From: Archivesica marissinica
Lineage: Eukaryota; Mollusca; Bivalvia; Venerida; Vesicomyidae
NCBI GenBank assembly: GCA_014843695.1
Contig: CM026391.1
Span: forward strand, 38,501,515 to 38,565,514
DNA: 64,000 nucleotides
Direction of reading: 5' to 3'
In this document: piece after piece, positions 3,826 through 54,971 of the stretch
Numbering within the stretch: position 1 is the first letter of the stretch
Layout of the letters: each line of letters begins with the position of its first letter
Notes under the pieces: generated by a model
Told to the model about the DNA's origin: nothing
The model's database searches: none
What the model saw: only the letters and a program-made list of their open reading frames with translations
Program-made: the position numbers and the translations under genes

Positions 3826-3947
3826 TATCAGAGGTATAGATCACCTGAACAAAACTGGACGTGTATTAACGTGTTCATTAACTTTTTAAAAAGATTGATA
3901 TATTTGGTTATTTTGGTTCATAACGACTTCAACGGATACCAATAAAC
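3826..3947 (+). promoter_or_regulatory. conserved 5' flank of the UNG-like gene
   Basis: The 122 bases before the ATG differ from the right-arm copy (62087-62208) at about 3 positions, against massive change inside the gene. It includes an AT-rich stretch CTTTTTAAAAAGATTGATAT about 60 bases before the ATG that could serve as a TATA-like element. The start context AAACATGAA has A at -3. The promoter role is inference from position only. Confidence 0.35.
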
Positions 3948-4724
3948 ATGAATCAGCCGACTGACGTAGATATATTTTTAAACGAAAATAATGTTCATGC
4001 GGATTGGATAACTTTTATTAGAGAAGAACCTGATTTACTTGATGAATTAACCAGAAGCCTTGGAGTAGTTGAGGAATTCGGTGATACAATCATTCCAAGG
4101 CGAAATCTGATACTTCGAGCACTGACGATATGCTCACCTGCAGACATAAAGGTTGTCCTAATTGCACAAGATCCTATTCCGAATGGATACCTTGCAACTG
4201 GACTGGCATTCTCCTTTCCACAGGGAAATACTGACACTAGTTCTCCCTCCATGAATATAATGCACGAAGCACTTCGGAACGCTAATTTACGGAACACGAA
4301 TAACGCATCGTGTTGTCACGAATCCTGGGCCAATAATGGAGTCTTACTACTGAACGCTGTCCTCACCATTGATCCACAGCTTTGTTACGATAAGCACAAG
4401 CAAGCTTGGATCAGCTTTACAAATAAATTGGTCCGCAAATTGTGCCAACAAAACAATAATTTATATATCATCTGTTGGGGAACAAACGCCAATGACATAG
4501 CTAATGGGTTAAGTGATATCGATCCTTACAAACAACAATGCACACATGACTGCACAGAGAAGACCCACGACAACTGCAGGCTTTTCGTATCGGACCATCC
4601 GACATTTCCAAAAAAAAATGTTGCTAAAAACAACTTCCCCACAGAAGGACCAAAGCAGTTCAAACGTATCAACAGGTGTTACAAGGGTATCTTCAAGTCG
4701 GCACGGAACGACCAAAACGATTGA
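3948..4724 (+). CDS. uracil-DNA glycosylase-like protein, left copy (258 aa)
   Basis: Intronless 258-codon frame with the motif order of family-1 uracil-DNA glycosylases. AQDPIP (residues 73-78) stands where the family has GQDPYH. GLAFSF (85-90) supplies the stacking Phe88, GVLLLNAVLT (131-140) the uracil-reading Asn136, and SDHPTFP (215-221) the His217 of the HPSPLS motif. The Asp75-Phe88 spacing of 13 equals that of E. coli Ung (64 to 77). The Tyr that keeps thymine out of the pocket is Ile77, and the next His is Pro78, so specificity or activity may be altered. There is no signal peptide or membrane segment. Compared with the right-arm copy it has about 70 replacements and only 3 silent differences, and it extends 8 residues further because TCG replaces the other copy's TAG stop. 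A nuclear or cytoplasmic DNA-binding or repair role is inferred; enzymatic activity is uncertain. Confidence 0.82.
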   Translation: MNQPTDVDIFLNENNVHADWITFIREEPDLLDELTRSLGVVEEFGDTIIPRRNLILRALTICSPADIKVVLIAQDPIPNGYLATGLAFSFPQGNTDTSSPSMNIMHEALRNANLRNTNNASCCHESWANNGVLLLNAVLTIDPQLCYDKHKQAWISFTNKLVRKLCQQNNNLYIICWGTNANDIANGLSDIDPYKQQCTHDCTEKTHDNCRLFVSDHPTFPKKNVAKNNFPTEGPKQFKRINRCYKGIFKSARNDQND

Positions 4725-4924
4725 ACAAGAAGTTCCCTGGCGCCAGACGTACCAAAAGTTAATCTACCATGAGGACCTCATCATATATACAAATCAAAGA
4801 ATAGGGCTATAAGTGAAAACTACACATTGGAACTATTTAGTAAACGTTGAAAAGTACAGAAACTATATATTATATGTTATGGAATATGATGATATATGGA
4901 ATTGTCCAGTAGAAAGTGGGAATG

Positions 4925-4985
4925 AGACAATTAATGACAATAAATCTGAATGAGACAATTAATGACAATACATCTATATCACAAT
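4925..4985. repeat. short tandem duplication, two copies
   Basis: The unit 'aatgagacaattaatgacaat' occurs twice here, after the UNG-like gene. The mirrored site in the right arm (61055-61130) has three copies, so it has changed copy number since the arms separated. Confidence 0.8.
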
Positions 4986-5171
4986 GTGCTTAAACAAAGC
5001 AATTCACATAACTATAGCAAGGGCAATGCACAAATACGCTAAACACTGTGTATAACATTATCTGAAGTAATAATAGTAGAATAGTAGAATAGTAGAACCG
5101 TCTGCGGAAAATATGTGAATAATCCATATTATTATAGGTAATGTAATCAGAGATGAATGTAAGTAATTCTG

Positions 5172-9811: not shown

Positions 9812-10343
9812 TTTAAAGCGACACTACATCAGTGAAAACACAAATGTCTACAGAATGTATTTTCCTATTATATGGCATAAATTGTTTTCAAATATTTGCC
9901 TCAAATACTGATTATTTCAACTAATAAACAAACGTCGTATACGCGGTTTGTTGACATAACCAAATCATGTAAACAGCCATGCGTAATACAACTAGTGTAT
10001 CCTGAATAACACGATTTATGGTACAGATGTACCGTTATATCTCACATGTCTGCCTATTATTTGTAGACTATTCTTAGTTAAATTATCTCTAAATGACATT
10101 ATATCGTGTTTAGTATTGACTCGTATGACAAACAAGTGTCAATTCAGGAGCATAGATGACCGTTATATGAAATCCTACTTTCGCTTGAAAGTTTGTAGAC
10201 CACAATACACTGTTTATTGATGCAATGCTAGTGTTCGAATGTATTCAGAAGAATTTGTAATACCCAAGAATTTGTAATACCAATGCATTTATACGTGAAC
10301 ACATTGATTGTATTTGCTTTTTGCGATGTAATGTCGCTTTAAA
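9812..10343. mobile_element. TIR (MITE-like) element, 532 bp
   Basis: Bounded by inverted repeats TTTAAAGCGACACTACATC (9812-9830) and its complement at 10325-10343, 18 of 19 bases matching. No transposase frame is present, so it is a non-autonomous element. It is flanked by an imperfect direct repeat of about 40 bp ('ggaatctctgaat...catatggcc'). The same element is in the right arm at 59302-59832, so it predates the duplication. Confidence 0.7.
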
Positions 10344-10617
10344 GGAAATCTATGAATGCAGTCATTTCACATATGGCCAACAATTTAAGGAATTATGAGT
10401 AAAATGTGTGAGCTTCCGTCGTTTCCTGGAAGTCTTAACGGAACCACATACAAAGCTCAAACTATGTTTGCAATGAGCTTGCGGTCGTAAGTTCACTGTG
10501 ATGACGAGGTTAACAAAACAAATGTACATATAGTCGAATACATGACACATAGCCTCGGCGCAGACCGATATACACGTAACCAGGGTAAAAACCAGAGGTA
10601 ACAAACCATTTATGATA

Positions 10618-10912
10618 ACAGACGGATCTGTAGTACAGTGGTAACACGCTGGACTGGTAATCCAGGGATAGCAGGTTCGATCCCCCGTCTGACCCTAATA
10701 CAATTAACAGTCTTTCAGATGGGACGTTAAACCGAGGTCTCGTGTCGGTGCTTTACACCGTGCACGTAAAAGAATCAGAGGAGACTCTGGAATGGGTCTC
10801 TGTCTGTATCATTGCACTATCCGCCAAAAAGCTAAAACGACTAACCTCTTCAGGAGGCGTCGCTCATATGGGCAACAGGTAGCGACGATAAATAAACGTA
10901 AAACACACACAG
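10618..10912 (+). mobile_element. SINE-A, full length with target-site duplication
   Basis: Complete copy: tRNA-Thr-like head with A and B boxes (B box GGTTCGATCCC), body, conserved tail ending GGTAGCGACGATAAATAAAC and a CA-rich end. It is flanked by a perfect 10-bp duplication ATTTATGATA (10608-10617 and 10913-10922), proving insertion by target-primed reverse transcription. It is shared with the right arm (58734-59024), so it predates the duplication. Confidence 0.93.
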
Positions 10913-10967
10913 ATTTATGATAGTGTGAAAAAAACTGTATCCAATATACCCCAGGGATGTTTCACAT

Positions 10968-11606
10968 AGTGGTGGAACCTATGCTCGGCGTATTCCTATG
11001 CTCGGCGTATTCCTATGTATGTGTCCATTTACATCCGTATTTAAAATATTTATATAGGTCTACGTTAATTTCGCTGACAGGGCTGAAGCCTTGTTCAATA
11101 TCATTCCGTTGCGTGTATCGGTAGCCTGATGCAACTGTCACGTGACTGGTCCAGTAGACGAATATAAACAAATAAATCATTGGGAGAATATTTCCACCGA
11201 AACTGATACAGTGTATGAGCAATTCAGGTAGCTATCCGAATTTTAGAAATCTACCCCTAACCCGAAAAATAATTTCTATACCATTTCTAATTAAGACCAA
11301 TAAGTGTTTTTACTCAATGATGCACTATATCAAAATAAGATATTCTACAAGTTATGGTGGATACATAAAACATAACAAGTTCGCCGTGCATAGGTGCCCC
11401 GAAGTCTTGAGTTCCCCATATAAGCGGGTGCTGACCCGACACCATTGCGATAGCTGTATTGAGCAGCAAGGTCACGTGATGAAATTAAAACTGTCAGCAA
11501 GAATATTTTGAAAGTTATTTTCACGAACTATTAATATACAAGGGCAATTAACATTTTATACTAGTCATTATATGGGGGATTTACGCCGAGCATAGGTTCC
11601 ACTACT
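10968..11606. mobile_element. TIR element, about 640 bp, with 69-codon frame
   Basis: Ends are inverted repeats of about 25 bases (AGTGGTGGAACCTATGCTCG and its complement finishing in CCACTACT) with one mismatch. Inside the left end 'cctatgctcggcgtatt' is duplicated. A 69-codon minus-strand frame (11013-11222) is kept in the right arm copy (58036-58677) with two changes, which the overall near-identity of the arms is enough to explain. No transposase is recognised. Confidence 0.6.
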
Positions 11607-11667
11607 CTGTACTAACAACATATATTTGATTGTATGACCACATATACGCTTTCATCCGCGCCAACGA

Positions 11668-11730
11668 AAGTGATTAATATAAGTTCTTAGAACTTGCTTC
11701 GCAATCGTTGTAAAATAAATAAAGTTTAAA
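11668..11730 (+). mobile_element. SINE-B tail fragment
   Basis: The stretch 'agtgattaatataagtt...ttcgcaatcg...aataaa' matches the 3' tail of the second SINE family (SINE-B). The head and body are absent or unrecognisable. Confidence 0.6.
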
Positions 11731-12159
11731 AGTTAAACTTATTTGATTGTAGATTAACATATTTATCAAACTATAACATATTGGTACGATATACAGCCTG
11801 ATACTGATAGGAGCCGCATATATAGGGGATTGCATTTATATGTTATCGAGGTCAAGTGTACATTTGGTATGTTTGTATCGACCGTGTCGTGCGATAACCT
11901 AAGACTTCCGCGATCGTGCGAGTTTGTGTGAAGCATGAGACAAGTCACCATACGTTAAATATGTATGCCGACCTGGTTATATTTGCAGACCAGCTTACAC
12001 ATGAAACACATAATGCTTGCCCGTTCAAATCCGATCTATTATGTCACCTCTTGAACCAATTTTCCTTGCGCTTGTGTTCGGTTTATGTCTCGTGTTTCCA
12101 CGATATTTGTTTATCTGACTATGTTAATGCTTGTACCGTCGAGGAATCATAATCCGCCG

Positions 12160-12207
12160 TGTTTTACGTTTATTTATCGTCGCTACCTGTTGGCCATATA
12201 AGCGACG
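12160..12207 (-). mobile_element. SINE-A tail fragment
   Basis: About 48 bases of the SINE-A tail on the minus strand (complement of GTAGCGACGATAAATAAACG), also present in the right arm at 57426-57472. No head is present. Confidence 0.75.
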
Positions 12208-12542
12208 CAGAATAATCCGACAATGATTATTGTGCTTATATGTGACATGTCTACATTTCTACGATGTGCTATTGTTTAATTCGCCTGAGAACTCATTGTA
12301 AATCGTAAAAGATAATTTCTCTTTGACAAGTTTTGGAACCATGGATCCCATCTTTAACATTGCATTCTGGTAAATGTATTGATGCGTCATAGGTAAACAA
12401 GGCACATCGTAGAATCTAGCCTTGGAACAGGTGTCGATATATTTTGCCTGGACAGTCAAATAAATATATTTTAACACTGAGACTATTAATTGGGTCGTAT
12501 TGAGTTTCTGATGACTTTTGCCAGAAGTTAAAAAGTGAAAAG

Positions 12543-12666
12543 TGTCAGGCTGGAACCCAGGCTACGTAGAACCTAGAACTATGAAGAGATCGATAACCTT
12601 TGAATGTCGGGCTGGAACCCAGGCTACGTAGAACCTAGAACTATGAAGAGATCGATAACCTTTGAA
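12543..12666. repeat. 62-bp tandem duplication, left arm only
   Basis: 'gtcaggctggaacccaggct...gataacctttgaat' occurs twice in a row. The right arm (near 57040-57095) has a single, internally shortened copy, so the duplication arose after the arms separated or was lost there. Confidence 0.85.
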
Positions 12667-12784
12667 CAGGTAGATGTATTACCGTATTGTGTTTAATAAT
12701 AGGCCATTTAATAGTGCTTGTATGTCAGAATTTTAGTAGCTGCCATTTTTGTTCTGTCGCTAGTGTGGCGTTGCATAGCGTTCA

Positions 12785-12895
12785 ACCAATATTGTGTCGC
12801 GACCAATTTTGGGTCGCTATCCATTTTGGGTCGGGTCTCGACCAATTTTGGGTCGGTCGACCAATTTTGGGTCGTGTCGACCATATTCTGGTAGT
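12785..12895. repeat. short tandem repeat of CCAATTTTGGGTCG
   Basis: Four to five copies of a CCAATTTTGGGTCG-type unit with variable 4-8 base linkers. The mirrored array at 56800-56915 has a slightly different copy number. Confidence 0.85.
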
Positions 12896-14263
12896 CCGAC
12901 CAGCGTGGGGCATATAAACGACCAATGTTACCAAAGTACTGGTACAGTACGTAGCGTCTAAACGGGACGGATAACTAGTGTTGTACTGAATGCGAGTGGT
13001 TGTAACATTATAATTAGTATTCTAACACGATCCAGCTAATAACATACATACTTTTAGAGTAAAATCTACCTCGGGTTATTCTACGATATACCTACCTTGA
13101 ACTATGCTGCATTCGCACCGTGTTTTGGATATTCCATGTATACAATGTGTACAGTTTTATGAATGAAAGTCACGTGATGTTTGTAAAAAATACCGTGGGA
13201 ATTCACGGAAGTAAGCTATTTTTAGAATCAGGTAATCTCTTGTCCGTCTTGTTTTTCTGTTAAGTAACGTTTCAGTTACTATTCTGTACAGTTTTATTTG
13301 ACAAAATAAATAAAATTATTGATCAGTTACAACTTGTGTTCATTTATGCACTAGATTGATAGTTTTCATAAAACATAACGCCATCACCCCTTACGCGGGA
13401 GGAAATTTCGAAAGCCAAATGCAGTGGAGTAGCACTGCGTTTGAAGAAAATACTCCTTTGATTCTCGTCTAAAATTATTAGAAGTAAGTCGTGTTAGAAT
13501 CGAAATAATAAGTATCAACCGTGGTATATCGCAGAATAACCCGAGTTTGAAGTTCTTATGCGTAGAAATATATCACTTAATGTACGGTGTAACTGTTTTA
13601 CGGCGTCGATAGTGTCATACAAATCTCTCGCGCGTTGATCCGTCGGAGGTTTTGGAGTACCGTCTCTAATCGTGTTATTATATGCTTGAGTAAAGTCATC
13701 TTTAAACTAAACTCATATTATAGTCCCTTTATACCCACGCACATATACATCACGTATGTAGTGCAATCAACGCATTGTAGTACCGTAATATCTGCAAGAA
13801 GAGCACTAGCTAGAGAAGTGCTCCAGTGCTGAGTAGGAACTACGTGAACACCCTAAGCACGCGACCACGACAGCAGGATGGCCCTTACACAATCGAACGC
13901 AACAATACTAATAACAATAACGAATCTGAATTGAATTTGATTTTAACATTCATAGATCCCGAATTGCAATAGCAAAATTGCTTGCGAAACGATCTAAGTC
14001 TAGAGTAGAACTGACGAACAATCACATTATATCACATGACCGAACGCGCACTCACTGTCACGTGATCCTCATTATATGCACTAATAATTCACACACATAA
14101 TTTTGTGCCAAGTATCGTTAAGACATACGTTCTGAGTTATACTAAAGTAACGCACTGAACTTGAAATTACTGACATTTCTAGGAATCCCAAATTTTCATT
14201 TTGTGAGCAATCACTAAGACGACCAAGACTGAAGGTCTCAAATTTGTTTTATTTGGAGTCGCA
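12896..14263. other. intergenic, one imperfect inverted repeat
   Basis: No supported gene. A 23-base sequence CTCGGGTTATTCTACGATAT+ACC near 13068 recurs inverted near 13530-13552 with one mismatch, so a 480-bp TIR or foldback element is possible. All of it is shared with the right arm (55221-56440). Confidence 0.45.
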
Positions 14264-14442
14264 TTAACTCTTTCAGCGTCTGATCAGGATCTATGTTGTT
14301 TGCTATTCGGACAGGTGCTTCAGCCCCACTGTCTGAAGAGCAATCAGTATATAGCCTGATCAGACGGCATGTTCTGTTCTGTCCGATCGGGTTCTCTACT
14401 TTTTTACAAAGTCGCTTTTATGCGACATTGGCGGTGAAAGAG
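14264..14442. mobile_element. piggyBac-like MITE, one TTAA lost
   Basis: Begins TTAACTCTTTCAGCG and ends GGCGGTGAAAGAG, an inverted repeat of about 12 bases. The left TTAA is present but the right one has become AAAA. A full copy with TTAA on both sides is at 24554-24757, and the right arm has a longer version at 54972-55220. TTAA target sites with CYCTTT-type ends are typical of piggyBac elements. No transposase is encoded. Confidence 0.72.
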
Positions 14443-14533
14443 AAAATCTACATTAAATTTATAATGGAAATCAGCAGAATAATGATGTATTTAATTTATT
14501 GACGTATTCATTCATTCTCAGAGTTTTAGGATG

Positions 14534-14910
14534 CATATATGATCTTACATGAGTGGTGATACCATATATGATCTTACATGAGTGGTGATACCATATATGA
14601 TCTTACATGAGTGGTGATACCATATATGATCTTACATGAGTGGTGATACCATATATGATCTTACATGAGTGGTGATACCATATATGATCTTACATGAGCG
14701 GTGATACCATATATGATCTTACATGAGCGGTGATACCATATATGATCTTACATGAGTGGTGATACCATATATGATCTTACATGAGTGGTGATACCATATA
14801 TGATCTTACATGAGTGGTGATACCATATATGATCTTACATGAGCGGTGATACCATATATGATCTTACATGAGCGGTGATACCATATATGATCTTACATGA
14901 GCGGTGATAC
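14534..14910. repeat. 29-bp minisatellite, exactly 13 copies
   Basis: Unit 'catatatgatcttacatgag+tggtgatac', 29 bp, 377 bases in total. Variation is essentially limited to gagtgg/gagcgg. The right arm has exactly 15 copies (54446-54880). Confidence 0.97.
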
Positions 14911-15416
14911 CATATTTTCTGAAACGCGTTTTGGAATTTTGCTATAATGAGTTTCATAAAATGTGGTATGAAATCACCACGCGTGTAAGATCCTTGTTAC
15001 CATAGTAACAACAACCATAAAGTTGAAGGTTGTAGCCATTTGCTTTTGTCTCCCCAGATTAAATCGTATACAGCAATAATTATAAATCCTAATATAATTT
15101 CACAATTTTTCTACGTATTTCATTGTGTGTATAATTGTAATGTAATGTAATGTAATGTAATGTATGGGGGGGGGGGGAAATGCAATAAAATATTATTTAA
15201 AATTAAATGTGAAGAAACAATACGTTTCTGATTGCCAGTATATTGTGAGCCTTATTACATTAAGCTGCATCCGCACGCCGTAATAAATAGTCCCTGATAA
15301 CCAAACAAGGCAAATAATGTGATACAAATAGTTGCATTGTGTTCATGTAAATGTAATTTTAGATTTCGGAGGATTGTGTATTGATGCACAATAATACAGA
15401 CACCAATTCCTGATTC
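14911..15416. other. intergenic with (TAATG)n and poly-G tract
   Basis: Contains a short TAATG run and a G homopolymer near 15136-15178. The rest is AT-rich and shared with the right arm (53961-54445). No gene seen. Confidence 0.6.
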
Positions 15417-15640
15417 TGTTGCCAAGTGGTTAATGTCGTTGACTTCAAATCACTTGCTCATCACTGTTGTAGGTTCGAATCCCCCTGGGGATTGAATTCA
15501 AGCGAGGAAGTGATCCAGTTGGCTTGCGGTAGATCGCTGGTTCTACCCGTGCAGGAAATACTGCTCATATGACACACGGGGTCTTCCTCCGCCAATAATA
15601 TTTAACGTCGCTATCGGTTGCCCATTTGAACGATGGGCAG
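15417..15640 (+). mobile_element. SINE-C (tRNA head plus conserved mollusc-type core)
   Basis: Class II tRNA-like head (GTTGCCAAGTGGTTAATGTC...GGTTCGAATCCCCC, with a long variable arm) followed by a core 'gtgatccagttggcttgcgg...ggttctaccc' and 'gggtcttcctcc'. I recognise this core as one that recurs in many bivalve sequences. The 3' end carries 'aacgtcgctatcggttgccc', related to the SINE-A tail in inverse sense. Mirrored copy at 53743-53960. Confidence 0.7.
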
Positions 15641-15923
15641 TTTACCTAACAACACGTTTCCTGGGAAGGCTACAGCGGTTAACCAGTACTCGGTGCAGCA
15701 ACCTCCATAAGAAACTGCCAAACTTCTTCATATAATGAGACACGGTCTGAGTGGTGCTCGAACCCGTGACTACCAATGACGTCATATGACCTAACCTGTT
15801 GTTGCGACGCTAAAACCACAACACAGACAAACAATGATTGTTCTCTCATATTCAGTAAACAATCAACGACACGAAACCTTGACTAAAGTCTCATCTGAAA
15901 GATTATGATACGAGTCATATACG

Positions 15924-16149
15924 TAAATTTATTTTAGCTCGATTGCGAAACAAGTTCTTTCAACTTATATTGATCACTCTCGAGACCTCATTCATGATGG
16001 AATTCATCGCCATGAAGGAGAGAGAAGAGGCAATGTGGAATTTAAATGCCTTGCCTAAGGGCACAATCGTAACGGCTCCAGCGGGGCTCGAACTCCAGAC
16101 CTTTCGCACCTGAAGCGAACGCGCATCCACTGTGCTATCACGATATAAG
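15924..16149 (-). mobile_element. SINE-B, full copy
   Basis: Minus-strand copy of a second tRNA-headed SINE. The head is at 16070-16149 (B box GAGTTCGAGCCCC on the minus strand), the body holds 'ttaaattccacattgcctct', and the tail is 'ttgtttcgcaatcgagctaa'. Present at the mirrored position in the right arm (53177-53406), so it predates the duplication. Confidence 0.85.
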
Positions 16150-16261
16150 TATGGTGTAGCGGGGGATATGGAACATACCGAACTACAGGACCGGCGGTGG
16201 TCACTGATTATACATAACAGTAGCTGTGATGTTTAAATACATATCTATTTAAAACCTATCA

Positions 16262-16345
16262 CCACGAGACGAGTGGTTCAGTGGTTAACATGTTGGACTG
16301 CGACTACATATATCGTAGGTTCAATACCCGATCTAACCCTTATAA
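16262..16345 (+). other. tRNA-like sequence, not a functional tRNA
   Basis: GAGTGGTTCAGTGGTTAACA...GGTTCAATACCC resembles a tRNA with A and B boxes, but the acceptor stem does not close and the T-arm loop has drifted. It is probably the head of a decayed SINE. Mirrored copy at 52980-53060. Confidence 0.5.
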
Positions 16346-16349
16346 TAAG

Positions 16350-16990
16350 TTCTTAGTAGATTGGCATGTTTTGGGACATTTTCACAAGAGACAAACTCAC
16401 AGATATGTTTAAAATATAGAGACAAAATGTCAAATCACACATATTTACCTTAAAGTAAAATTACTACGCCACACATATTAACTCGAATAAACACAATCAT
16501 AAACAATTATGGAACAGTTAAATGAATTATTAGAACTAAACAATAATATCAAACATACTACCGACGTGGTGTACATGGATGTAACATATTAACTGCTAAC
16601 TATACGGCCAATCTTTTTAACCCTTTCCTTCATAGAGACATTGGTTAATATACTATTATATTTATATACAAACGACAGTCATTTAGCTATCATGCAGTGG
16701 ATAAGTAGTCGCCGTATCTATCCTATCTCCATATATATTACTGGGACTACATGAGATTCTGGCCTTTATTATGAGCATTGGTTTGGCTATAACAGTGTCA
16801 ATGTATGTCGTATTGGTAATGGCGTCAAGAGGCGCTTCTATGAGGGAATGCACCTTTCTGTAGGTCCAACCCACCATCGCATTACTGTAACGTTGCACTT
16901 GAAAATACTAACAACACTAAATTGTCAAACATATCTAGGTTTTCTATTCCTTTAGTTTCCGTGCAGCTTGTTGAAAAAAACAGCTTCTTT
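16350..16990. other. intergenic, no gene seen
   Basis: A 71-codon minus-strand frame (16683-16898) is kept in the right arm (50952-51167) with three changes, in line with overall arm identity, so coding is not supported. The right arm has a LINE fragment inserted in the counterpart of 16550-16560. Confidence 0.5.
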
Positions 16991-17191
16991 AGTTTATACA
17001 AATTTATTTTAGCTCGATTGCGAAACAAGTTATTTCAACTTATATAAATCACTCTCGAGACCTCATTCCTGATGGAATCCATCGCCACGAGGGAGAGAGA
17101 AGAGGCAATGTGGAATTTAAATGCCTTGCCTAAGGGCACAATCGTAACGGCTCCAGTGGGGCTCGAACTCCGGACCTTTCGCACCTGAAGC
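16991..17191 (-). mobile_element. SINE-B insertion private to the left arm
   Basis: SINE-B copy on the minus strand flanked by a perfect 13-bp duplication AAACAGCTTCTTT (16978-16990 and 17192-17204). The mirrored site in the right arm (near 50860) is empty, so this copy inserted after the arms separated. The head is truncated just before the A-box region. Confidence 0.9.
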
Positions 17192-17364
17192 AAACAGCTT
17201 CTTTCACTTGGTGTATCTAACCACTGGACCAACGTCTGTATGGAATATATAACGCCATTAAGGAACGAGTTGCATTCAAGTGGACAGGAGAATCCTACGG
17301 ACAATGGACACGAAAAGTAGTCCATGCGCAATGTGTTCCGGTATAGTACGGCTAATTAAACTGG

Positions 17365-17649
17365 ACAGACGGATCTGTAGTCCAGTGGTAACACGCTGGA
17401 CTGGTAATCCAGGGATCGCAGGTTCGATCCCCCGTCTGACCCTAATAAAATTAACAGTCTTTCAGATGGGACGTTAAACCGAGGTCTGGTGCTTTACACC
17501 GTGCACGTAAAAGAACCAGAGGAGATTCTGGAATGGGTCTCTGTCTGTATCATGCACTATCCTCCAAAATCTAAAATAACTAATCTCTTCATGAGGCGTC
17601 GCTCATATGGGCAACCGGTAGCGACGATAAATAAACGTAAAAAAAAACA
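17365..17649 (+). mobile_element. SINE-A, full length with target-site duplication
   Basis: Complete head, body and tail, with a small internal deletion after 'gaggtct'. Flanked by a perfect 12-bp duplication TAATTAAACTGG (17353-17364 and 17650-17661). Shared with the right arm at 50411-50700. Confidence 0.93.
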
Positions 17650-17661
17650 TAATTAAACTGG

Positions 17662-18738
17662 GGCTTGTTTTCGCACTGGTTATCAGAGCATCATTCCGGC
17701 AACATATATATTTGCAACAGAATCAATCAATCATTCAATCAATCGAGTTAAAAATATTTTCATATAATTTACGAGTATCAATAAACCGACGGCTGCATAT
17801 TCATAGACCGAATGGATATGCCCAGTGTATGAACGATTTCCATTCGTAAAATTTAATATTCGTATCAATATAATTTTAAAGGCATCGCATTCATTTATTC
17901 ATTTGCAATTAGTTCTGGAGATTAGCGGTTTTCAATATTAAGAATAGCGCCTTCAAATACAAAGGTATGTTCATATCTTGAGAGGAAGATGAGGCCCGTA
18001 TTTAGCAACGGTTGAGTAGAGATATATTCGTGTGAACAATTCAAGTCTACTTTCGATAGAGAGTTTTCAATTAACGACTTTGCTAAATATTCAACAGTTG
18101 TAACGCTGTATATATATATATACGACGTAATTTGGCGTTATTAAAAGGCATTATTGTTACTTAACACGTTGAAACATAGCAGATGAATTAAGAATATAGC
18201 GACAGTGTAAATCTACTTGAAGCTAAGAAAATGGCTTATCCATGGTGCTTACAGACCGTGTGTGACTGTGGATTTACGATATACTATTGAATAATTTGGA
18301 TAATTATTATATATATATAGATCACTCTGCGACTGTGCAACAGCAATTTAGAAACGCTTAAACTTAATGGAATCCGCTTATGTATGATATGGAATACAAT
18401 ATTCGAAAAAGTGTAATTTGTTGAATAACAACTTTGTATCCAGTATGCAACAAGTCTGGGGAATTATGTGGTACATACAGTGTGAACACGGGTCGCGTGC
18501 AGACGACATTGGGAAACATAGAGCACTTTCTAAACAGAATGGATATACAACACACATATTGGAAATTACAATCTCAATGACAGTGTGACATATATACGGA
18601 ACAATTCTAGTTAATTTCTGCGAATATTTTCATTTTTGTGCTCTGCTTAAGTCTCGTCATAATTTGAACATAGAAATGTGTTAAATGTGCAATTGGTGGA
18701 ATATTGACTAGATTTATATTATTGACATTAACGTAAAC
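17662..18738. other. upstream region of the 391-aa gene
   Basis: AT-rich DNA with two short (TA)n runs (18108-18121, 18309-18320). It is retained almost unchanged in the right arm (49316-50410), so promoter elements may lie here, but none can be named from the sequence. Confidence 0.5.
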
Positions 18739-19914
18739 ATGGCTTCATCAAATCGGTACCAAAAGCGCGCGTCCGTGGCTCCTGATACGAAACTTCCACC
18801 TATAACCGAAACACCTCCTGCGTCATCGCCTACGTCACAATCATCAAAAGGTTCTAAATCAACAAAAAGTGACAATGAAAATCCGTTCAGGAGAAATTCA
18901 CGTCGGCCTTCCATAGCACTCTCTAATTCATCAAGCTCGTCACGAGATTCGACTATATCCCCGACTTCAAGGCGATCTTTGTCTAGTGCACCGGGAAGAA
19001 ATTCAATAGACCTATCAAAGTCTGAAAATATAATAAAACAAGTGAATAAACAGAGGAGAGGTTCAGTTCTCAACGTAATGCCGACTGGAAGAAAAGCATC
19101 GTTTCGTACAATTGGAGCGCGGGTTACTTCCCTTCTTAAAGCAAAGAATGCATTTGCAAGACTTAAAAATAGACAAGGTATAGTTGACGATGAGTTGAAT
19201 GAAGATGATTCTAAAGTATTTGAAATCGAAAAATTGCCAAATACGCCACGGTTTGCTTCAACACTATCGGCTGAAGCGCAGTATGCCATGATGAAAGGAT
19301 ATGAAGACGTGGTCTACAGTAATCTATGTAACCAGTATCCAGAATACAGGCCAATGCTACGGAGAAACAAAACACCACACTCGGGAATTACAGTCAGCCC
19401 ACCAAAGGGAAAAGATACGCACCATAGACTGCGTGAAACCTCTACAACTAGTGGACAACTGGAAGCTGCCGTAGATGACAAAGCAAATGACGCAACTGCG
19501 TCTCAGATGGAGAGTGAACCGCCAACTACGTCAACACCAACACTAGAAGACAAGTCCGACCAGACGCCACGAAACACAATTACTACATCTCCTGTTCCAA
19601 GATCACTGTCAAGCCTGAGCCATTCGCCACGCGAGGCAGAATACACATCATTATTTAAGATATCTCCATCTAAACACAAGCATGTAAAGAGGCAGCATGT
19701 GGACAGACCTGAAAATGAACAACAGCTCGTGATGACATATAGATATCAGCGTGCAATGGATATCCTGGATAATATACGCATGCACCAAGGTTGCCATGCT
19801 TTGTCTCCACGTATGAAAGCCGAACATCGCATTGAGCCACTGAAGGAATACAACTCTTGGTCATATGTGTGGAACCATGAATTTGTGCCAAAACCAGGAG
19901 TTTCAAATATGTAA
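18739..19914 (+). CDS. 391-aa Ser/Pro/Lys-rich protein, left copy, function unknown
   Basis: Single open frame with a good start context (AAACATGG) and TAA stop, no intron. I do not recognise the family. Residues 1-110 are basic and rich in Ser, Thr and Pro, likely disordered and phosphorylatable. Residues about 160-205 form a better-ordered stretch (AQYAMMKGYEDVVYSNL). Residues 210-320 are again Thr/Pro-rich, and the C-terminal 60 residues look structured, with several aromatics (YNSWSYVWNHEF). There is no signal peptide, membrane helix or catalytic motif. The right-arm copy differs at four residues (7, 103, 178, 326) and at six silent codons, which indicates purifying or weak selection and a real protein. 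Its separate conservation from the surrounding repeats makes it the best ordinary host gene here. A role in cytoskeleton or cilia cannot be argued from sequence. Confidence 0.75.
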   Translation: MASSNRYQKRASVAPDTKLPPITETPPASSPTSQSSKGSKSTKSDNENPFRRNSRRPSIALSNSSSSSRDSTISPTSRRSLSSAPGRNSIDLSKSENIIKQVNKQRRGSVLNVMPTGRKASFRTIGARVTSLLKAKNAFARLKNRQGIVDDELNEDDSKVFEIEKLPNTPRFASTLSAEAQYAMMKGYEDVVYSNLCNQYPEYRPMLRRNKTPHSGITVSPPKGKDTHHRLRETSTTSGQLEAAVDDKANDATASQMESEPPTTSTPTLEDKSDQTPRNTITTSPVPRSLSSLSHSPREAEYTSLFKISPSKHKHVKRQHVDRPENEQQLVMTYRYQRAMDILDNIRMHQGCHALSPRMKAEHRIEPLKEYNSWSYVWNHEFVPKPGVSNM

Positions 19915-19967
19915 AGGAGGAAGAGTTAATGTCAGAGTTTTCACTATTTACTGTGGTATATATCAGT

Positions 19968-20240
19968 AGCGTAGCTAGGGGCAACTTTCAACCGAGGCGT
20001 TCTATGGGTGCCGTATGCTCCCCCCTTACAATTGTTGGGGTATAGAAGCGAGTCCCTGCGTTTTCTGATTTAATGAGTTTAGACGTATAATTATGTACTG
20101 ACCTTTCAGTTCTCTTGAAGTCAACAACATTTGTATAGAGCACAGTGATATTTGTTTTATTTTATTTATTTAATTTTTGTTTTTGCTTTGGAAATTTTAA
20201 TCGAGGAAGCTGCCTCGATGTGCCTCAATGTGGCTACGGG
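19968..20240. mobile_element. MITE-like element with CAG...CTG ends
   Basis: Starts CAGTAGCGTAGCTAGGGGC and ends GTGGCTACGGGCCTG, an imperfect inverted repeat of about 15 bases. The same type of end (CTGGCTACGGCCCTG) recurs at 23549-23563. The contents are non-coding. Mirrored at 47806-48095. Confidence 0.55.
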
Positions 20241-20441
20241 CCTGTGTATCAGCATTTAAAACACTGTCGTGACGTCATAACGTTGTACTTGCAGTCCATT
20301 ATTATTATTATTATTGGACTACTGTCAAAAGGACAGAGTATTATATTAAATCATACGCGTACATGTACGAAATTAACAATTTTAATTAATAGGATCTTGT
20401 TATATAAGTGTGGGCTTTAAGTAAGATATAAGCCTCAAACG

Positions 20442-20517
20442 GATCCAATATGTAAAATATTCGTACTGTCTTCGGCGATACGCGCCTTACACAGTCCAAT
20501 ATTTTACATATTGGATC
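20442..20517. repeat. hairpin at the inner edge of the left arm
   Basis: Perfect 20-base inverted repeat (20442-20461 and 20498-20517; GATCCAATATGTAAAATATT and its complement) around a 36-base loop. The complementarity extends imperfectly outward through 'gatataagcc/ggcatatatc'. It lies 86 bp from the inner breakpoint of the giant inverted repeat; the right-arm copy is at 47540-47615. It may be a foldback element. Confidence 0.85.
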
Positions 20518-20922
20518 GTTTTCGGCATATATCCTATACATACATGATGTAATCTGTATTAACTAGGTATGACAACGAACGTTATCTACTTAACGTTAAT
20601 ACTATTTTTTTGTAATATATTACAGATAAATCATATAATTGTTTGTTTATATTTCAATCAATACATATTTAAGCACAAAAGAATGACCCAATGCGGGCCC
20701 GGGGGTGCGAACAGTTATCATGAGTTGGGTCCAAATAACAAAGGCAGGTGATGACAAGTTGCTCATACTTACAGGTGCAACTAATTGATTAATGCAGTCT
20801 ATTTGACGGACACAAACTGAGAAGCATTTGTTTTACAGATACTAACTGTAGCCCGTGAAAACCTACAAAGAGTTTAATGATTCACACTAAAACATGTCGG
20901 AACGTTTATGTCAACACCTGTG

Positions 20923-43864: not shown

Positions 43865-44864
43865 NNNNNNNNNNNNNNNNNNNNNNNNNNNNNNNNNNNN
43901 NNNNNNNNNNNNNNNNNNNNNNNNNNNNNNNNNNNNNNNNNNNNNNNNNNNNNNNNNNNNNNNNNNNNNNNNNNNNNNNNNNNNNNNNNNNNNNNNNNNN
44001 NNNNNNNNNNNNNNNNNNNNNNNNNNNNNNNNNNNNNNNNNNNNNNNNNNNNNNNNNNNNNNNNNNNNNNNNNNNNNNNNNNNNNNNNNNNNNNNNNNNN
44101 NNNNNNNNNNNNNNNNNNNNNNNNNNNNNNNNNNNNNNNNNNNNNNNNNNNNNNNNNNNNNNNNNNNNNNNNNNNNNNNNNNNNNNNNNNNNNNNNNNNN
44201 NNNNNNNNNNNNNNNNNNNNNNNNNNNNNNNNNNNNNNNNNNNNNNNNNNNNNNNNNNNNNNNNNNNNNNNNNNNNNNNNNNNNNNNNNNNNNNNNNNNN
44301 NNNNNNNNNNNNNNNNNNNNNNNNNNNNNNNNNNNNNNNNNNNNNNNNNNNNNNNNNNNNNNNNNNNNNNNNNNNNNNNNNNNNNNNNNNNNNNNNNNNN
44401 NNNNNNNNNNNNNNNNNNNNNNNNNNNNNNNNNNNNNNNNNNNNNNNNNNNNNNNNNNNNNNNNNNNNNNNNNNNNNNNNNNNNNNNNNNNNNNNNNNNN
44501 NNNNNNNNNNNNNNNNNNNNNNNNNNNNNNNNNNNNNNNNNNNNNNNNNNNNNNNNNNNNNNNNNNNNNNNNNNNNNNNNNNNNNNNNNNNNNNNNNNNN
44601 NNNNNNNNNNNNNNNNNNNNNNNNNNNNNNNNNNNNNNNNNNNNNNNNNNNNNNNNNNNNNNNNNNNNNNNNNNNNNNNNNNNNNNNNNNNNNNNNNNNN
44701 NNNNNNNNNNNNNNNNNNNNNNNNNNNNNNNNNNNNNNNNNNNNNNNNNNNNNNNNNNNNNNNNNNNNNNNNNNNNNNNNNNNNNNNNNNNNNNNNNNNN
44801 NNNNNNNNNNNNNNNNNNNNNNNNNNNNNNNNNNNNNNNNNNNNNNNNNNNNNNNNNNNNNNNN
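43865..44864. other. assembly gap of exactly 1000 N
   Basis: A round-number run of N marks a scaffold join of unknown size within or at the end of the 29-bp satellite. The sequence after it ('atcccggtgttactgg') is not satellite. Confidence 1.
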
Positions 44865-46440
44865 ATCCCGGTGTTACTGGTTTTCGACGACGTAGTATAT
44901 ATTATCTTTTATTCCTCCATTTCTGAAGAGTTACATACACTCATCAAGAAAGATACAAAAGTACAGAACATAATTATAAACACAACTATAGATCAGGTAC
45001 GAATTAGAATATACAAATAACATAACATACATACGTACAGATAATTAAGAATGAAAAAAAACAATACAATATCATAACCTTGGCCTAAGATCAAGGAAAG
45101 TGTCAATAGTTATTCTCGGGCTTAATAATAAATATACAACCATCTAAAACAACATAAGGATTCACGAAAGCGAAAATGGTACATTATGAAGTACATGGTG
45201 ATATAAATAGTATCGTTTTGTATCACATATATGAACACATTATTTTCGTTTATTTTATAATGCTATCGCATAAACTTGCTTAAGAAATGAAGCACTGGTG
45301 CACAGAAAGTCTGAATACTGTTCCGGATGTATTAATCTGGCAATGTCTTTGTCTATATGTCCTAGTAGATATTTCAAGAACGCAGGTCGTGATATATTTT
45401 TCATTAACATATATAAGTTATTAGAGAAATAGTCATGTACATGGTTCAGGTAAATGTTTCTGAGGTTATCTGATTTAACAGTATCGCATTCATAAACAAT
45501 GTGGAACAGTTCATCATATGTAATGGTGTTACAGTTTAAGCATGTGATAGGCCTACACACAGGTTTGCAGATTTGTTTTGCTGTAAAAGACATAAGTTCG
45601 ATGGTATTTGGTTTTTCAAGTGCTACACGCCACATGCTGGCGGGGATAAGTTCATCGTGGACGTCTCTGAATCTTGTAAATTCAACACGGGAAGCCATTC
45701 TCAGTGACCAGTTTGTCTGTTCGTAGTTTAAGACGGATTGTTTACATATTATCTTCCACCGTTGTTTCCCAGGAAACATATTATTTAACACAAATTCAGT
45801 CAGAAAACGTACTAAGCCGTATTTCTCAAGAACACAGGCGATATCAGACACAAAACCTCGATTGCGCGCTGTACTTTTGTTATTGTATTGATACAATCTG
45901 TAAATGAACAACTGCAGTGCAATGTCTGACGATTTTAGATGACACAGATAGCCTAAAAAGCTAAGCTTTTGTAAGTCTATATACGCTTCAATGGAGGTGA
46001 AGCCAAGTAGACCATTCACCATGTCAGAACGTGTTAGTTGTGGAAGATTCTGCAATCGTTTGAGGCAAAAATGGTGTGTTGCCTCAAGATGGCGCATGTC
46101 GGACTTTGTTATATGATTCCATAGTTCGCATCCGAAGAATGATCTTGGTAGAACAGTTGATGTATATAGTTTTGCCGCCGTTATTGGGTTTAAGCCGTTA
46201 GCGTGAATTCCAGAGTGTATGAAACTGAACAAAGTACTTCTAGCTGATTGTCGTATATCATCCACATTCGCTGGATTTTTTCTAGTCTTGTGCTGAACAA
46301 CACCAAGATGTTTGTATTGCTCAACTTCTTTAATGCAGGTAGTGTCGTAACACAATTTAATACTTTCCTTGCAATGACGTGGCTGATTGTGAACTAAGAC
46401 TGCGCATTTGGATGCCCCAAAATCTCGAAGAAAACCGATT
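44865..46440 (-). mobile_element. older LINE fragment with 3' UTR
   Basis: Minus-strand element. It has a truncated coding region from about 46440 to 45255, then a 3' UTR ending in 'aggaataaaagataatatat' near 44895. The 5' part, including the whole RT catalytic core, is missing. No clear target duplication is visible because the 3' end approaches the gap. Confidence 0.75.
45255..46440 (-). pseudogene. C-terminal fragment of a LINE reverse transcriptase protein
   Basis: The frame of 366 residues from the Met at 46355 reads through from about 46415 upstream (GASKCAVLVHN, the segment after the FADD box). It carries KHLGV (residues about 15-19) and a long LINE-type C-terminal region with a Cys-rich end (CLNC...YECD). 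It differs from the LINE at 32418 and belongs to another clade. The fragment is uninterrupted but cannot act alone because the polymerase motifs are absent. Confidence 0.75.
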
Positions 46441-47450
46441 GTTTACTTATTGAGAAAAATTGACAAAATAGCGGTACCTCATTCTCAGTAATCCGGAATG
46501 ACGTCACATGTTTTCGCCTAACTGTGGAAATTGCCTACAGCGCGAGCATTATTATGTAAGCAACAGTTTTTTTTAACAAAACAATATAAATAAGGAACAC
46601 TTACTTTAATAATAGGCTTAATTTATCATTTTCACTCAAAATTCATTTGTTGGAGAGCATTTTGTCTATATACTGTATCTAAAACACTAATTTAGTTTAT
46701 CTTAGACAAACACACGGGGCATAAGAAGTCGTCGCCCCTCCTAATTACTCTGACTGGGTGCAGAACCGTAACTGGACCCATCCATCGAACACATCACACG
46801 GTGCCTAACAGAGAATAACTAGGTTTACACAACCATGTATATCAGTTGGAGAACCTCTGTGAAAACACATGGACCTGAAGGCGAAAAACGGTGAAAATCG
46901 ATATTATGAATAAGGACCCCTTGTGTGTAATAACGGACATAACTCATAAACACGGAGCAGTGAGACTATAATGACATTTTTATTCGTAAATATATTGGCG
47001 TGGCAGACGATGCATATGTCATTTTGGAGAAAAAATTGCCAATTTCTTTAAAAAATGATATTTATATGGTGACATAAAACGGATATAGTGAAATTAGTGA
47101 AAACTGGGGTAGGTTTAAAGTTTTCACCGCTAATTTACCTTGTCTGATATATTATGATCAGTTAGAAATAGATTGGAAGTGCACAAGGTATGTTTATTTA
47201 TAATTCCGGTAACTGGAGCGTGAAATATTGCGTGATCTCTTGCGACTTGCTATTTCCACAGTTGGGCGAAAACCTGTTCTGGTCGAAAACTCTTCACGCC
47301 GGGATATGTGGAATCGATAAAAGATTGCACAAGCATGGTGCCTTCGCTTAAATAGTTTGGGAGTCTGAAAATAGTTCCAAGGATATTCATGCGCATAGAA
47401 ATTGTTATTTGGTCGTAGGTAAAAGGTTCAATCTTAATTTGATTAAACCA
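46441..47450. other. intergenic, possible TIR element
   Basis: A 21-base sequence TTTTCGCCTAACTGTGGAAA+T at 46512-46532 recurs inverted at about 47252-47272 with one mismatch, giving a 760-bp candidate element without a coding frame. No gene is supported. Confidence 0.45.
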
Positions 47451-48139
47451 AGTATTAACGTTAAGTAGATAACGTTCGTTGTCATACCTAGTTAATACAG
47501 ATTACATCATGTATGTATAGGATATATGCCGAAAACGATCCAATATGTAAAATATTGGACTGTGTAAGGCGCGTATCGCCGAAGACAGTACGAATAGTTT
47601 ACATATTGGATCCGTTTGAGGCTTATATCTTACTTAAAGCCCACACTTATATAACAAGATCCTATTAATTAAAATTGTTAATTTCGTACATGTACGCGTA
47701 TGATTTAATATAATACTCTGTCCTTTTGACAGTAGTCCAATAATAATAATAATAATGGACTGCAAGTACAAAGTTATGACGTCACGACAGTGTTTTAAAT
47801 GCTGATACACAGGCCCGTAGCCACATTGAGGCACATCGAGGCAGCTTCCTCGATTAAAATTTCCAAAGCAAAAACAAAAATTAAATAAATAAAATAAAAC
47901 AAATATCACTTTGCTCTATACAAATGTTGTTGACTTCAAGAGAACTGAAAGGTCAGTACATAATCATACGTCTAAACTCATTAAATCAGAAAACGCAGGG
48001 ACTCGCTTCTATACCCCAACACTTGTAAGGGGGGAGCATACGGCACCCATAGAACGCCTCGGTTGAAAGTTGCCCCTAGCTACGCTACTGATATATACCA
48101 CAGTAAATAGTGAAAACTCTGACATTAACTCTTCCTCCT

Positions 48140-49315
48140 TTACATATTTGAAACTCCTGGTTTTGGCACAAATTCATGGTTCCACACATAGGACCAAGAG
48201 TTGTATTCCTTCAGTGGCTCAATGCGATGTTCGGCTTTCATACGTGGAGACAAAGCATGGCAACCTTGGTGCATGCGTATATTATCCAGGATATCCATTG
48301 CACGCTGATATCTATATGTCATCACGAGCTGTTGTTCCTTTTCAGGTCTGTCCACATGCTGCCTCTTTACATGCTTGTGTTTAGATGGAGATATCTTAAA
48401 TAATGATGTGTACTCGGCCTCGCGTGGCGAATGGCTCAGGCTTGACAGTGATCTTGGAACAGGAGATGTAGTAATTGTGTTTCGTGGCGTCTGGTCGGAC
48501 TTGTCTTCTAGTGTTGGTGTTGACGTAGTTGGCGGTTCACTCTCCATCTGAGACGCAGTTGCGTCATTTGCTTTGTCATCTACGGCAGCTTCCAGTTGTC
48601 CACTAGTTGTAGAGGTTTCACGCAGTCTATGGTGCGTATCTTTTCCCTTTGGTGGGCTGACTGTAATTCCCGAGTGTGGTGTTTTGTTTCTCCGTAGCAT
48701 TGGCCTGTATTCTGGATACTGGTTACATAGATTACTGTAGACCACGTCTTCATATCCTTTCATCATGGCATACTGAGCTTCTGTCGATAGTGTTGAAGCA
48801 AACCGTGGCGTATTAGGCAATTTTTCGATTTCAAATACTTTAGAATCATCTTCATTCAACTCATCGTCAACTATACCTTGTCTATTTTTAAGTCTTGCAA
48901 ATGCATTCTTTGCTTTAAGAAGGGAAGTAACACGCGCTCCAATTGTACGAAACGATGCTTTTCTTCCAGTCGGCATTACGTTGAGAACTGAACCTCTCCT
49001 CTGTTTATCCACTTGTTTTATTATATTTTCAGACTTTGATAGGTCTATTGAATTTCTTCCCGGTGCACTAGACAAAGATCGCCTTGAAGTCGGGGATATA
49101 GTCGAATCTCGTGACGAGCTTGATGAATTAGAGAGTGCTATGGAAGGCCGACGTGAATTTCTCCTGAACGGATTTTCATTGTCACTTTTTGTTGATTTAG
49201 AACCTTTTGATGATTGTGACGTAGGCGATGACGCAGGAGGTGTTTCGGTTATAGGTGGAAGTTTCGTATCAGGAGCCACGGACGCGCGCTTTTGGTTCCG
49301 ATTTGATGAAGCCAT
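48140..49315 (-). CDS. 391-aa Ser/Pro/Lys-rich protein, right copy, function unknown
   Basis: Same length and boundaries as the left copy (18739-19914). Replacements are Tyr7 to Asn, Asn103 to Asp, Ala178 to Thr and Asn326 to Lys, plus six silent codons, so about 1% divergence. Start context and stop are unchanged and there is no frameshift. Upstream about 1.1 kb and downstream 0.6 kb are retained as well, so both copies could be expressed. If the arms are two haplotypes rather than a duplication, this is the second allele. Confidence 0.75.
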   Translation of the reverse strand: MASSNRNQKRASVAPDTKLPPITETPPASSPTSQSSKGSKSTKSDNENPFRRNSRRPSIALSNSSSSSRDSTISPTSRRSLSSAPGRNSIDLSKSENIIKQVDKQRRGSVLNVMPTGRKASFRTIGARVTSLLKAKNAFARLKNRQGIVDDELNEDDSKVFEIEKLPNTPRFASTLSTEAQYAMMKGYEDVVYSNLCNQYPEYRPMLRRNKTPHSGITVSPPKGKDTHHRLRETSTTSGQLEAAVDDKANDATASQMESEPPTTSTPTLEDKSDQTPRNTITTSPVPRSLSSLSHSPREAEYTSLFKISPSKHKHVKRQHVDRPEKEQQLVMTYRYQRAMDILDNIRMHQGCHALSPRMKAEHRIEPLKEYNSWSYVWNHEFVPKPGVSNM

Positions 49316-50410
49316 GTTTACGTCAATGTCAATAATATAAATCTAGTCAATATTCCACCAATTGCAAATTTAACACATTACTATGTTCAAATTATGACGA
49401 GACTTAAGCAGAGCACAAAAATGAAAATATTCGCAGAAATTAACTAGAATTGTTCCGTATATATGTCACACTGTCATTGAGATTGTAATTTCCAATATGT
49501 GTGTTGTATATCCATTCTGTTTAGAAAGTGCTCTATGTTTCCCAATGTCGTCTGCACGCGACCCGTGTTCACACTGTATATATACCATATAATTCCCCAG
49601 ACTTGTTGCATACTGGATACAAAGTTGTTATTCAACAAATTACACTTTTTCGAATATTGTATTCCATATCATACATAAGCGGATTCCATTAAGTTTAAGC
49701 GTTTCTAAATTGCTGTTGCACGGTCGCAGAGTGATCTATATATATATAATAATTATCTAAATTATTCAATAATATATCGTAAATCCACAGTCGCACACGG
49801 TCTGTAAGCACCACGGATAAGCCATTTTCTTAGCTTCAAGTAGATTTACTCTGTCGCTATATTCTTAATTCATCTGCTATGTTTCAACGTGTTAAGTAAC
49901 AATAATGCCTTTTAATAACGCCAAATTACGTCGTATATGCAATATATCATACAGCGTTACAACTGTTGAATATTTAGCAAAGTCGTTAATTGAAAACTCT
50001 CTATCGAAAGTAGACTTGAATTGTTCACACGAATATATCTCTACTCAACCGTTGCTAAATACGGGCCTCATCTTCCTCTCAAGATATGAACATACCTTTG
50101 TATTTGAAGGCAATATTCTTAATATTGAAAACCGCTAATCTCCAGAACTAATTGCAAATGAATAAATGAATGCGATGCCTTTAAAATTATATTGATACGA
50201 ATATTAAATTTTACGAATGGAAATCGTTCATACACTGGGCATATCCATTCGATCTATGAATATGCAGCCGTCGGTTTATTGATACTCGTAAATTATATGA
50301 AAAGATTTTTAACTCGATTGATTGAATGATTGATTGATTCTGTTGCAAATATATATGTTACCGGAATGATGCTCTGATAACCAGTGCGAAAACAAGCCCC
50401 AGTTTAATTA
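49316..50410. other. upstream region of the 391-aa gene, right copy
   Basis: Mirror of 17662-18738 with scattered substitutions. No named regulatory element. Confidence 0.5.
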
Positions 50411-50700
50411 TGTTTGTTTACGTTTATTTATCGTCACTACCGGTTGCCCATATGAGCGACGCCTCCTGAAGAGATTAGTTATTTTAGATTTTGGAGGATA
50501 GTGCATGATACAGACAGAGACCCATTCCAGAATCTCCTCTGGTTCTTTTACGTGCACGGTGTTAAAGCACCGACACGAGACCTCGGTTTAACATCCCATC
50601 TGAAAGACTGTTAATTTTATTAGGGTCAGACGGGGGATCGAACCTGCGATCCCTGGATTACCAGTCCAGCGTATTACCACTGGACTACAGATCCGTCTGT
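50411..50700 (-). mobile_element. SINE-A, right-arm copy of 17365-17649
   Basis: Minus-strand head (ends 50700, 'ctacagatccgtctgt') and tail at 50417-50475, flanked by the AGTTTAATTA-type duplication seen on the left. Shared insertion. Confidence 0.92.
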
Positions 50701-51297
50701 CCAGTTTAATTAGCCGTACTATACCGGAACACATTGCGCATGGACTACATTTCGTGTCCATTGTCCGTAGGATTCTCCTGTCCACTTGAATGCAAATCGT
50801 TCCTTAATGGCGTTATATATTCCATACAGACGTTGGTCCAGTGGTTAGATACACCAAGTAAAATAATCTGTTTTTTCAACAAGCTGCACGGAAACTAAAG
50901 GAATAGAAAACCTAGATATGTTTGACAATTTAGTGTTGTTAGTATTTTCAAGTGCAACGTTACAGTAATGCGATGGTGGGTTGGACCTACAGAAAGGTGC
51001 ATTCCCTCATAGAAGCGCCTCTTGACTCCATTACCAATACGACATACATTGACACTGTTATAGCCAAACCAATGCTCATAATAAAGGCCAGAATCTCATG
51101 TAGTCCCAGTAATATATATGGAGATGGGATAGATATGGCGACTACTTATCCACTGCATGATAGCTAAATGACTGTCGTTTGTATAGAAATATAATAGTAT
51201 ATTAACCAATGTCTCTATGAAGGAAAGGGTTAAAAAGATTGGCAGTTAATATGTTACATCCATGTACACCACCTCGGTAGTATGTTTGATATTTATT

Positions 51298-52786: not shown

Positions 52787-52979
52787 TCTAATAATTCATT
52801 TAACTGTTCCGTAATTGTTTATGATTGTGTTTATTCGAGTTAATATGTGTGGCATAGTAATTTTACTTTAAGGTAAATATGTGTGATTTGACATTTTGTC
52901 TCTATATTTTAAACATATCTGTGACTTTGTCTCTTGTGAAAATGACCCAAGCATGCCAATCTACTAAGAACTAATTATA

Positions 52980-53060
52980 AGGGATAGATCGGGTATTGAA
53001 CCTACGATCTATGTAGTCGCAGTCCAACATGTTAACCACTGAACCACCCGTCTCGTGGTG
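52980..53060 (-). other. tRNA-like sequence, right-arm copy
   Basis: Mirror of 16262-16345. Same drifted B-box region and non-closing stem. Confidence 0.5.
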
Positions 53061-53176
53061 ATAGGTTTGTAATAGATATGTATTTAAACATCACAGCTAC
53101 TGTTATGTATAATCAGTGACCACCGCCGGTCCTGTAGTTCTGTATGTTCGATATCCCCCGCTACACCATACTTATA

Positions 53177-53406: not shown

Positions 53407-53437
53407 AAACCATACTTATATGACTCGTATCATAATC

Positions 53438-53503
53438 TTTCAGATGAGACTTTCAGATGAGACTTTCAGATGAGAGACTTTCAGATGAGACTTTCAGATG
53501 AGA
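53438..53503. repeat. 13-bp tandem repeat private to the right arm
   Basis: 'tttcagatgagac' occurs five times. The left arm (near 15885-15903) has one copy. Confidence 0.85.
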
Positions 53504-54880: not shown

Positions 54881-54971
54881 CATGCTAACACTCTGAGAAT
54901 GAATGAATACGTCAATACATTAAATACATTATTATTCTGCTGATTTCCATTATAAATTTAATGTAGATTTT

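Follow-up and report, generated by a model that had tools for sequence, protein, structure and literature searches.

Positive selection between young versions of an UNG-like gene in the clam Archivesica marissinica

As a rule, UNG is a conserved repair enzyme with a housekeeping role. Why, then, do two UNG-like open reading frames (ORFs) in one stretch of a bivalve genome differ almost only in their amino acids? The stretch in question, here called the window, comprises 64,000 nucleotides of the vesicomyid clam Archivesica marissinica (assembly GCA_014843695.1, contig CM026391.1, positions 38,501,515 to 38,565,514, forward strand), and window coordinates are counted from its first letter. It carries copy A, an intact intronless ORF of 258 amino acids (aa) at 3948..4724 (+), and copy B, likewise intronless and intact, of 246 aa at 61346..62086 (-). 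With 29% of the residues replaced and the silent sites nearly untouched, the two copies offer an unusually clear case of diversifying selection in an UNG-fold gene.

Replacement excess between copies A and B

The codon alignment of A and B comprises 246 codons: 172 identical, 71 replaced and three silent (GCA/GCG at Ala65, AAG/AAA at Lys236 and GGT/GGC at Gly247, in A numbering). Two in-frame indels, of one and three codons, lie within the gene, and B stops eight codons before A. An earlier note on this DNA had reported about 70 replaced residues, two in-frame indels and these same three silent codons; its count holds almost to the codon, and the recount brought no further silent change among the 246 aligned codons. 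At the nucleotide level, 100 of 738 bases differ (33, 45 and 22 at codon positions 1, 2 and 3), the changed codons having one (52 codons), two (18) or three (4) base changes. The NG86 method gives a dN of 0.177 and a dS of 0.058, and Goldman-Yang maximum likelihood gives a dN/dS ratio (omega) of 5.13, significantly different from 1 (twice the log-likelihood difference, 2dlnL, 16.8; p 4.2e-5). The high omega that the earlier note had expected is thus found in the pairwise comparison, and it persists, at 2.84, when a third copy is added (see below). In a neutral simulation, 107 non-stop changes, seven more than observed to allow for repeat hits, were placed at random on A, 1500 times for each of four values of kappa. 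The mean number of silent codons was 16.1, 16.9, 18.3 and 19.5 at kappa 1, 1.35, 2 and 3, respectively, and at every kappa none of the 1500 runs had three or fewer.

Other causes of such a pattern were considered. An overlapping reading frame is ruled out: the five other frames, in which these differences would amount to 13-23 silent codons, contain 14-41 stops (both sequences summed). An A is involved in 72 of the 100 differences; targeted mutagenesis is nonetheless ruled out, since a purely mutational process would hit silent third positions as well. Sequencing or assembly error, or the decay of a pseudogene, is hardly credible. The earlier stop of B and a truncated gene fragment at 70.9 kb would fit it, but these processes would hit silent sites, break frames and reach only the local 2-3%, whereas the 100 differences found here leave the frames open, the indels in frame and only three codons silently changed. 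Strong positive selection has acted between young versions of an UNG-fold gene, and this conclusion stands whether A and B are alleles or paralogues.

The youth of the two versions, which the earlier note had deduced from their low silent divergence, is confirmed by the local neutral clock. Among A-B codons whose first two bases are equal, 2 of 76 fourfold sites differ at the third base, and six other blocks of the homologous arms (9927..20603, +, on the A contig; 47451..59718, -, on the B contig) diverge by 0.7-2.4%. In a profile of 400-bp bins, divergence is 0.5-5.6% off the gene, mostly below 3.5%, and 11-13% across it. The 122 bp directly before the ATG of A, a candidate promoter or 5' untranslated region (3826..3947, +), show two differences from the counterpart directly 5' of B (62087..62208, -). 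The 3' flank of A (4725..5169, +), common to B, shows three differences in its first 110 bases and 17 of 463 over the aligned stretch, which reaches 5209. A linked control ORF of 391 aa (18739..19914, +; partner 48140-49315, -), whose nearest named proteins are those of Mercenaria (52%) and Ruditapes (53%), has five silent and five replaced codons relative to its partner. Since fourfold sites, nearest flanks, arm blocks and linked ORF all diverge little, the silent sites of the gene are about as young as their surroundings; the protein is not.

Further copies and the allelic status of A and B

A genome search with A as query returned, besides the two window copies, a third intact copy, of 263 aa, on the sequence labelled C4 (17740820-17741608, -; hereafter the C4 copy), and a truncated 5' gene fragment of 62 codons at window-equivalent 70.9 kb (C6). 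In the three-copy comparison, 150 of 246 codons are identical and 23 differ in all three copies, while the codons unique to one copy, replaced and silent, number 31 and 0 in A, 17 and 3 in B, and 18 and 4 in C4. A three-branch model with a single omega yields the value of 2.84 given above (2dlnL 15.9, p 6.8e-5); when the branches are freed, omega is 15.6 for A, 3.2 for B and 1.3 for C4 (further 2dlnL 8.4). The gene-wide ratio is therefore significantly above 1, most strongly along the A branch and weakly along the C4 branch. Codons 1-38 of the fragment have no silent difference from A, B or C4 and 8, 7 and 3 replaced ones, respectively. These data support the view that positive selection is also visible with the C4 copy and the 5' fragment.

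The variants are distributed mosaic-wise among the three copies, as might result from gene conversion by older diverged donors, without present selection. Old donors, however, would bring silent changes with them, and only 3, 7 and 6 silent codons are found beside 71, 73 and 55 replaced ones (A-B, A-C4 and B-C4, respectively). Moreover, no further donor was found in the genome with A or with the protein P0140 as query, the latter matching the three full copies only. This origin of the pattern is considered very unlikely.

The earlier note had spoken of a gene pair. Two diverged versions do exist, but they may be two haplotypes of one locus, the B contig being short, gap-flanked and homologous to its neighbor. 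The window resembles a palindrome, the right arm of which is inverted and lies on a separate contig of 29,238 bp (44865-74102; 44865..64000 within the window) flanked by two runs of exactly 1000 N. The first run (43865..44864) separates it from the A contig. Runs of N may also mark sequence that was withheld, yet a length of exactly 1000 in both cases suggests scaffold gaps. The homology of the B contig to the A contig extends to its final base, which falls within a 42-bp tandem repeat, and the arms differ by about 2%. At its other end the B contig carries a reverse-transcriptase-like ORF (read from the translation; Pfam gives no family), the kind of sequence in which contigs often break. A comparison of the 40 kb to the left of the window with the 49 kb past the second gap gave no match at E 1e-30. 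Unpurged haplotigs usually look like this, and the balance tips slightly towards A and B being two alleles, the B contig then being an alternative haplotype that escaped purging and was placed, inverted, next to the primary contig. The locus would then hold a hyper-divergent polymorphism in one animal and no duplicated pair, a situation compatible with a role in defence. Against two alleles stand two stretches of the B contig without a partner on the A contig (a terminal one of 2.6 kb and an internal one of 8.5 kb), the additional 5' gene fragment on the B contig, and the existence of three full sequences, A, B and C4, which cannot all be alleles of one diploid locus. The contig that carries the C4 copy is likewise short, with gaps at 17724200-17725199 and from 17766516.

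Several repeats accompany these copies. A 24-bp AT-rich minisatellite of about 152 units (window 5170-9020) lies directly 3' of copy A, and similar repeats adjoin the C4 copy, next to which an insertion with 144-bp inverted repeats, 96% complementary (L003 680-1349), resembles a non-autonomous DNA transposon. Elsewhere in the window, a 754-aa ORF with a reverse transcriptase domain (32610-34874, +; Pfam RVT_1, 117 bits) is flanked by two tandem arrays of one 45-bp unit (27463-32175, about 107 copies; 37666-39702, about 46 copies), in which several frames are open on both strands.

Family identity and placement of the replacements

The UNG fold (family-1 UDG) is present in A and B, the latter matching the Pfam UDG family with 29.3 bits. 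Both miss TIGR00628 (105.9 bits for A and 97.5 for B, cut-off 185.75) and the remaining NCBIfam UNG models, which are tuned to prokaryotes; the positive control P0023 passes all five. Unlike ordinary family-1 UNG, the clam copies are intronless, evolve at an omega of about 5 in the A-B comparison, and carry AQDPI in place of GQDPY, so that Gly has become Ala and the thymine-excluding Tyr has become Ile, while the catalytic Asp, like Asn, Phe and His of the pocket, is retained in A, B and C4. The HPSPL loop is replaced by an HPT-x-P motif (HPTFP, HPTYP and HPTHP).

The best matches of A are the proteins P0001-P0018, over 93-97% of its length, followed by shorter bacterial UNGs. In a FastTree tree rooted on five UNGs, A, B and C4 group with these proteins, apart from the UNGs, in an UNG-like family (support 0.88 for 43 tips). 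This family is known here from land snails and slugs (Candidula, Bradybaena, Arion) and from metagenome sources, and its members reach at least 180 bits with the family profile, ordinary UNG at most 108. Most of them share the motifs C-x-H-E-x-W-A and HPT-x-P with the clam copies, but identity is only 30-38%, and the catalytic Asp, kept in the clam trio, is lost in 37 of the 40 family domains outside it. On these sequence criteria, A and B are members of a divergent UNG-like family that occurs in molluscs, and they appear not to be the repair enzyme. A published description of such a family was not found in open-licence PMC titles and abstract openings. Among the best 80 of 126 confirmed viral loci, no family member was found; in three forward frames, QDPY occurs in 69 of the 80, C[CFG]H[EQKR]xW in none, and HPT[FYIC][PS] somewhere in 6. 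PADLOC, in a library of 2023 that is older than the Brig1 paper, gave no match for A or B and contained no sequence relative of the window gene.

Two kinds of domain architecture were observed among the relatives. P0135, a predicted protein of Bradybaena similaris (492 aa), combines an UNG-like domain with two domains known from the apoptotic DNA-fragmentation factor, CIDE-N (99 bits) and DFF-C (51 bits); either the fusion is genuine or the gene model is at fault. P0121 and P0122 (529 and 530 aa) have two tandem UNG-like domains each, the QDP motif being largely gone from the second.

The ordinary UNG is encoded elsewhere in the genome. A bacterial UNG query gave 13 matches, including A, B and C4, four exon-like ones at C8:63953452-63962216, and three near-identical two-exon copies on C9 (944787-947165, 1019771-1022186 and 1165162-1167581). 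The C9 copies have HPSPLS intact and differ pairwise, in the two exons seen, at 2-4 of 154 codons (2 replaced, 0-2 silent), too few for a selection test. PF03167 had no match in the whole genome, a search evidently insensitive, as the bacterial query found both the UNG exons and the three copies A, B and C4. Since an ordinary UNG is encoded on C8 and C9, A and B need not serve repair. Of the repair fold named in the earlier note, then, the fold stands, and the repair enzyme gives way to a divergent relative. In another clam, Mercenaria, an uracil-DNA glycosylase is reported within 50 kb of single-nucleotide polymorphisms for heat tolerance (PMC12123719).

The replacements avoid the conserved core, the strands and the hydrophobic sites. 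None of the 51 columns conserved in the wider family differs between A and B, and three differ in any of the three copies. By structural element, A-B replacements affect 1 of 25 strand, 38 of 106 helix and 32 of 115 other positions, and residues hydrophobic in A make up 9 of the 71 replaced sites vs 84 of the 175 kept ones. The loop corresponding to the 4-Pro loop is variable at 10 of 12 sites. C198, C202, H207 and C210 of A are invariant in the three copies, most residues in between being variable, and may form a metal or disulfide site. In all seven close clusters of relatives that were tested, the variable columns overlap those of the clam trio (p 4e-7 for P0134-P0137, with 49 columns shared, 41 and 27 unshared and 102 in neither set; p 0.02 in the weakest cluster). 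This overlap does not by itself show selection in the relatives, because exposed sites would overlap anyway.

Possible function and known systems

What could drive such change in an UNG fold? The established ground consists of the fold itself, the kept pocket residues, a gene-wide selection that spares conserved positions and an ordinary UNG elsewhere. With about even confidence, A and B are taken to be versions, separated only recently as alleles or young paralogues, of an intronless mollusc UNG-like gene whose product would take part in an intracellular arms race, either in defence or as a decoy. Its pocket and DNA face would encounter foreign nucleic acid or the proteins with which parasites attack UNG, and its exterior would be remodelled repeatedly to escape or catch a changing antagonist. 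That the contest would be intracellular is suggested by the lack of a visible signal peptide (by eye), the kept pocket, the true UNG elsewhere, and the antiviral use of the UDG superfamily in bacteria. The arms race proposed in the earlier note would be the best fit to the selection, which is itself supported. More tentatively, and with distinctly lower confidence, the mollusc UNG-fold family, freed from repair, could be a hypervariable intracellular defence or recognition system; A and B would then be two alleles that differ at 29% of residues against about 2-3% of fourfold silent and neighbouring non-coding sites.

Several points weigh against a role in defence. The A-B pair was singled out by an earlier reader for its striking ratio, and only three full pairs exist. 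The C4 lineage on its own has an omega of 1.3, and the pooled single-copy changes (7 of 73 silent) give only p 0.02 when compared with a silent share of 0.19. The local divergence peak is not wholly coding, because a stretch farther upstream is also diverged: over the whole upstream alignment 31 of 247 bases differ between A and B, the excess lying beyond the last 122 bp. DNA-facing loops, the limits of which were set by the authors from the alignment and the known anatomy of UNG, are not significantly enriched in replacements, either in any of the three copies (20/45 vs 69/201, p 0.23) or between A and B only (15/45 vs 56/201, p 0.47), so that a DNA-mimic inhibitor is not singled out.

An alternative, similar to the bacterial Brig1, would be a glycosylase with its specificity shifted to altered bases in the DNA of parasites or transposons; the change of Tyr to Ile would open the pocket, and selection would track the targets. 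UNG without the thymine-excluding Tyr accepts thymine, and A, B and C4 have Ile there while keeping Asp, Asn, Phe and His. The pocket itself, however, is invariant between A and B, and the Asp is absent in 37 of 40 domains outside the trio, which makes retuning unlikely. A decoy or sensor aimed at parasite proteins is favoured over a glycosylase for altered bases, because the pocket is constant between the copies and most relatives have lost the catalytic Asp. The clam gene is a concrete candidate for bivalve defence against viruses or transposons, and it makes a question testable: do animal uracil-glycosylase folds act against foreign DNA, as Brig1 does in bacteria, or as decoys for UNG attackers?

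Two known systems invite comparison. Abalone lysin and other molluscan fertilization proteins undergo rapid replacement under positive selection, as seen here, and the gene-wide signal is typical of such proteins, so that a sperm-egg or seminal recognition protein comes to mind. Lysin and its kin are secreted gamete proteins, however, of a different kind from the clam copies, which have no signal peptide by eye and an UNG fold with a kept base pocket; a reproductive function is quite unlikely. The other system is Brig1, an anti-phage DNA glycosylase described as a member of the UDG superfamily serving bacterial defence (PMC11078745). The best structural match given there for Brig1 is an archaeal family-4 UDG, whereas the clam copies have the family-1 fold.
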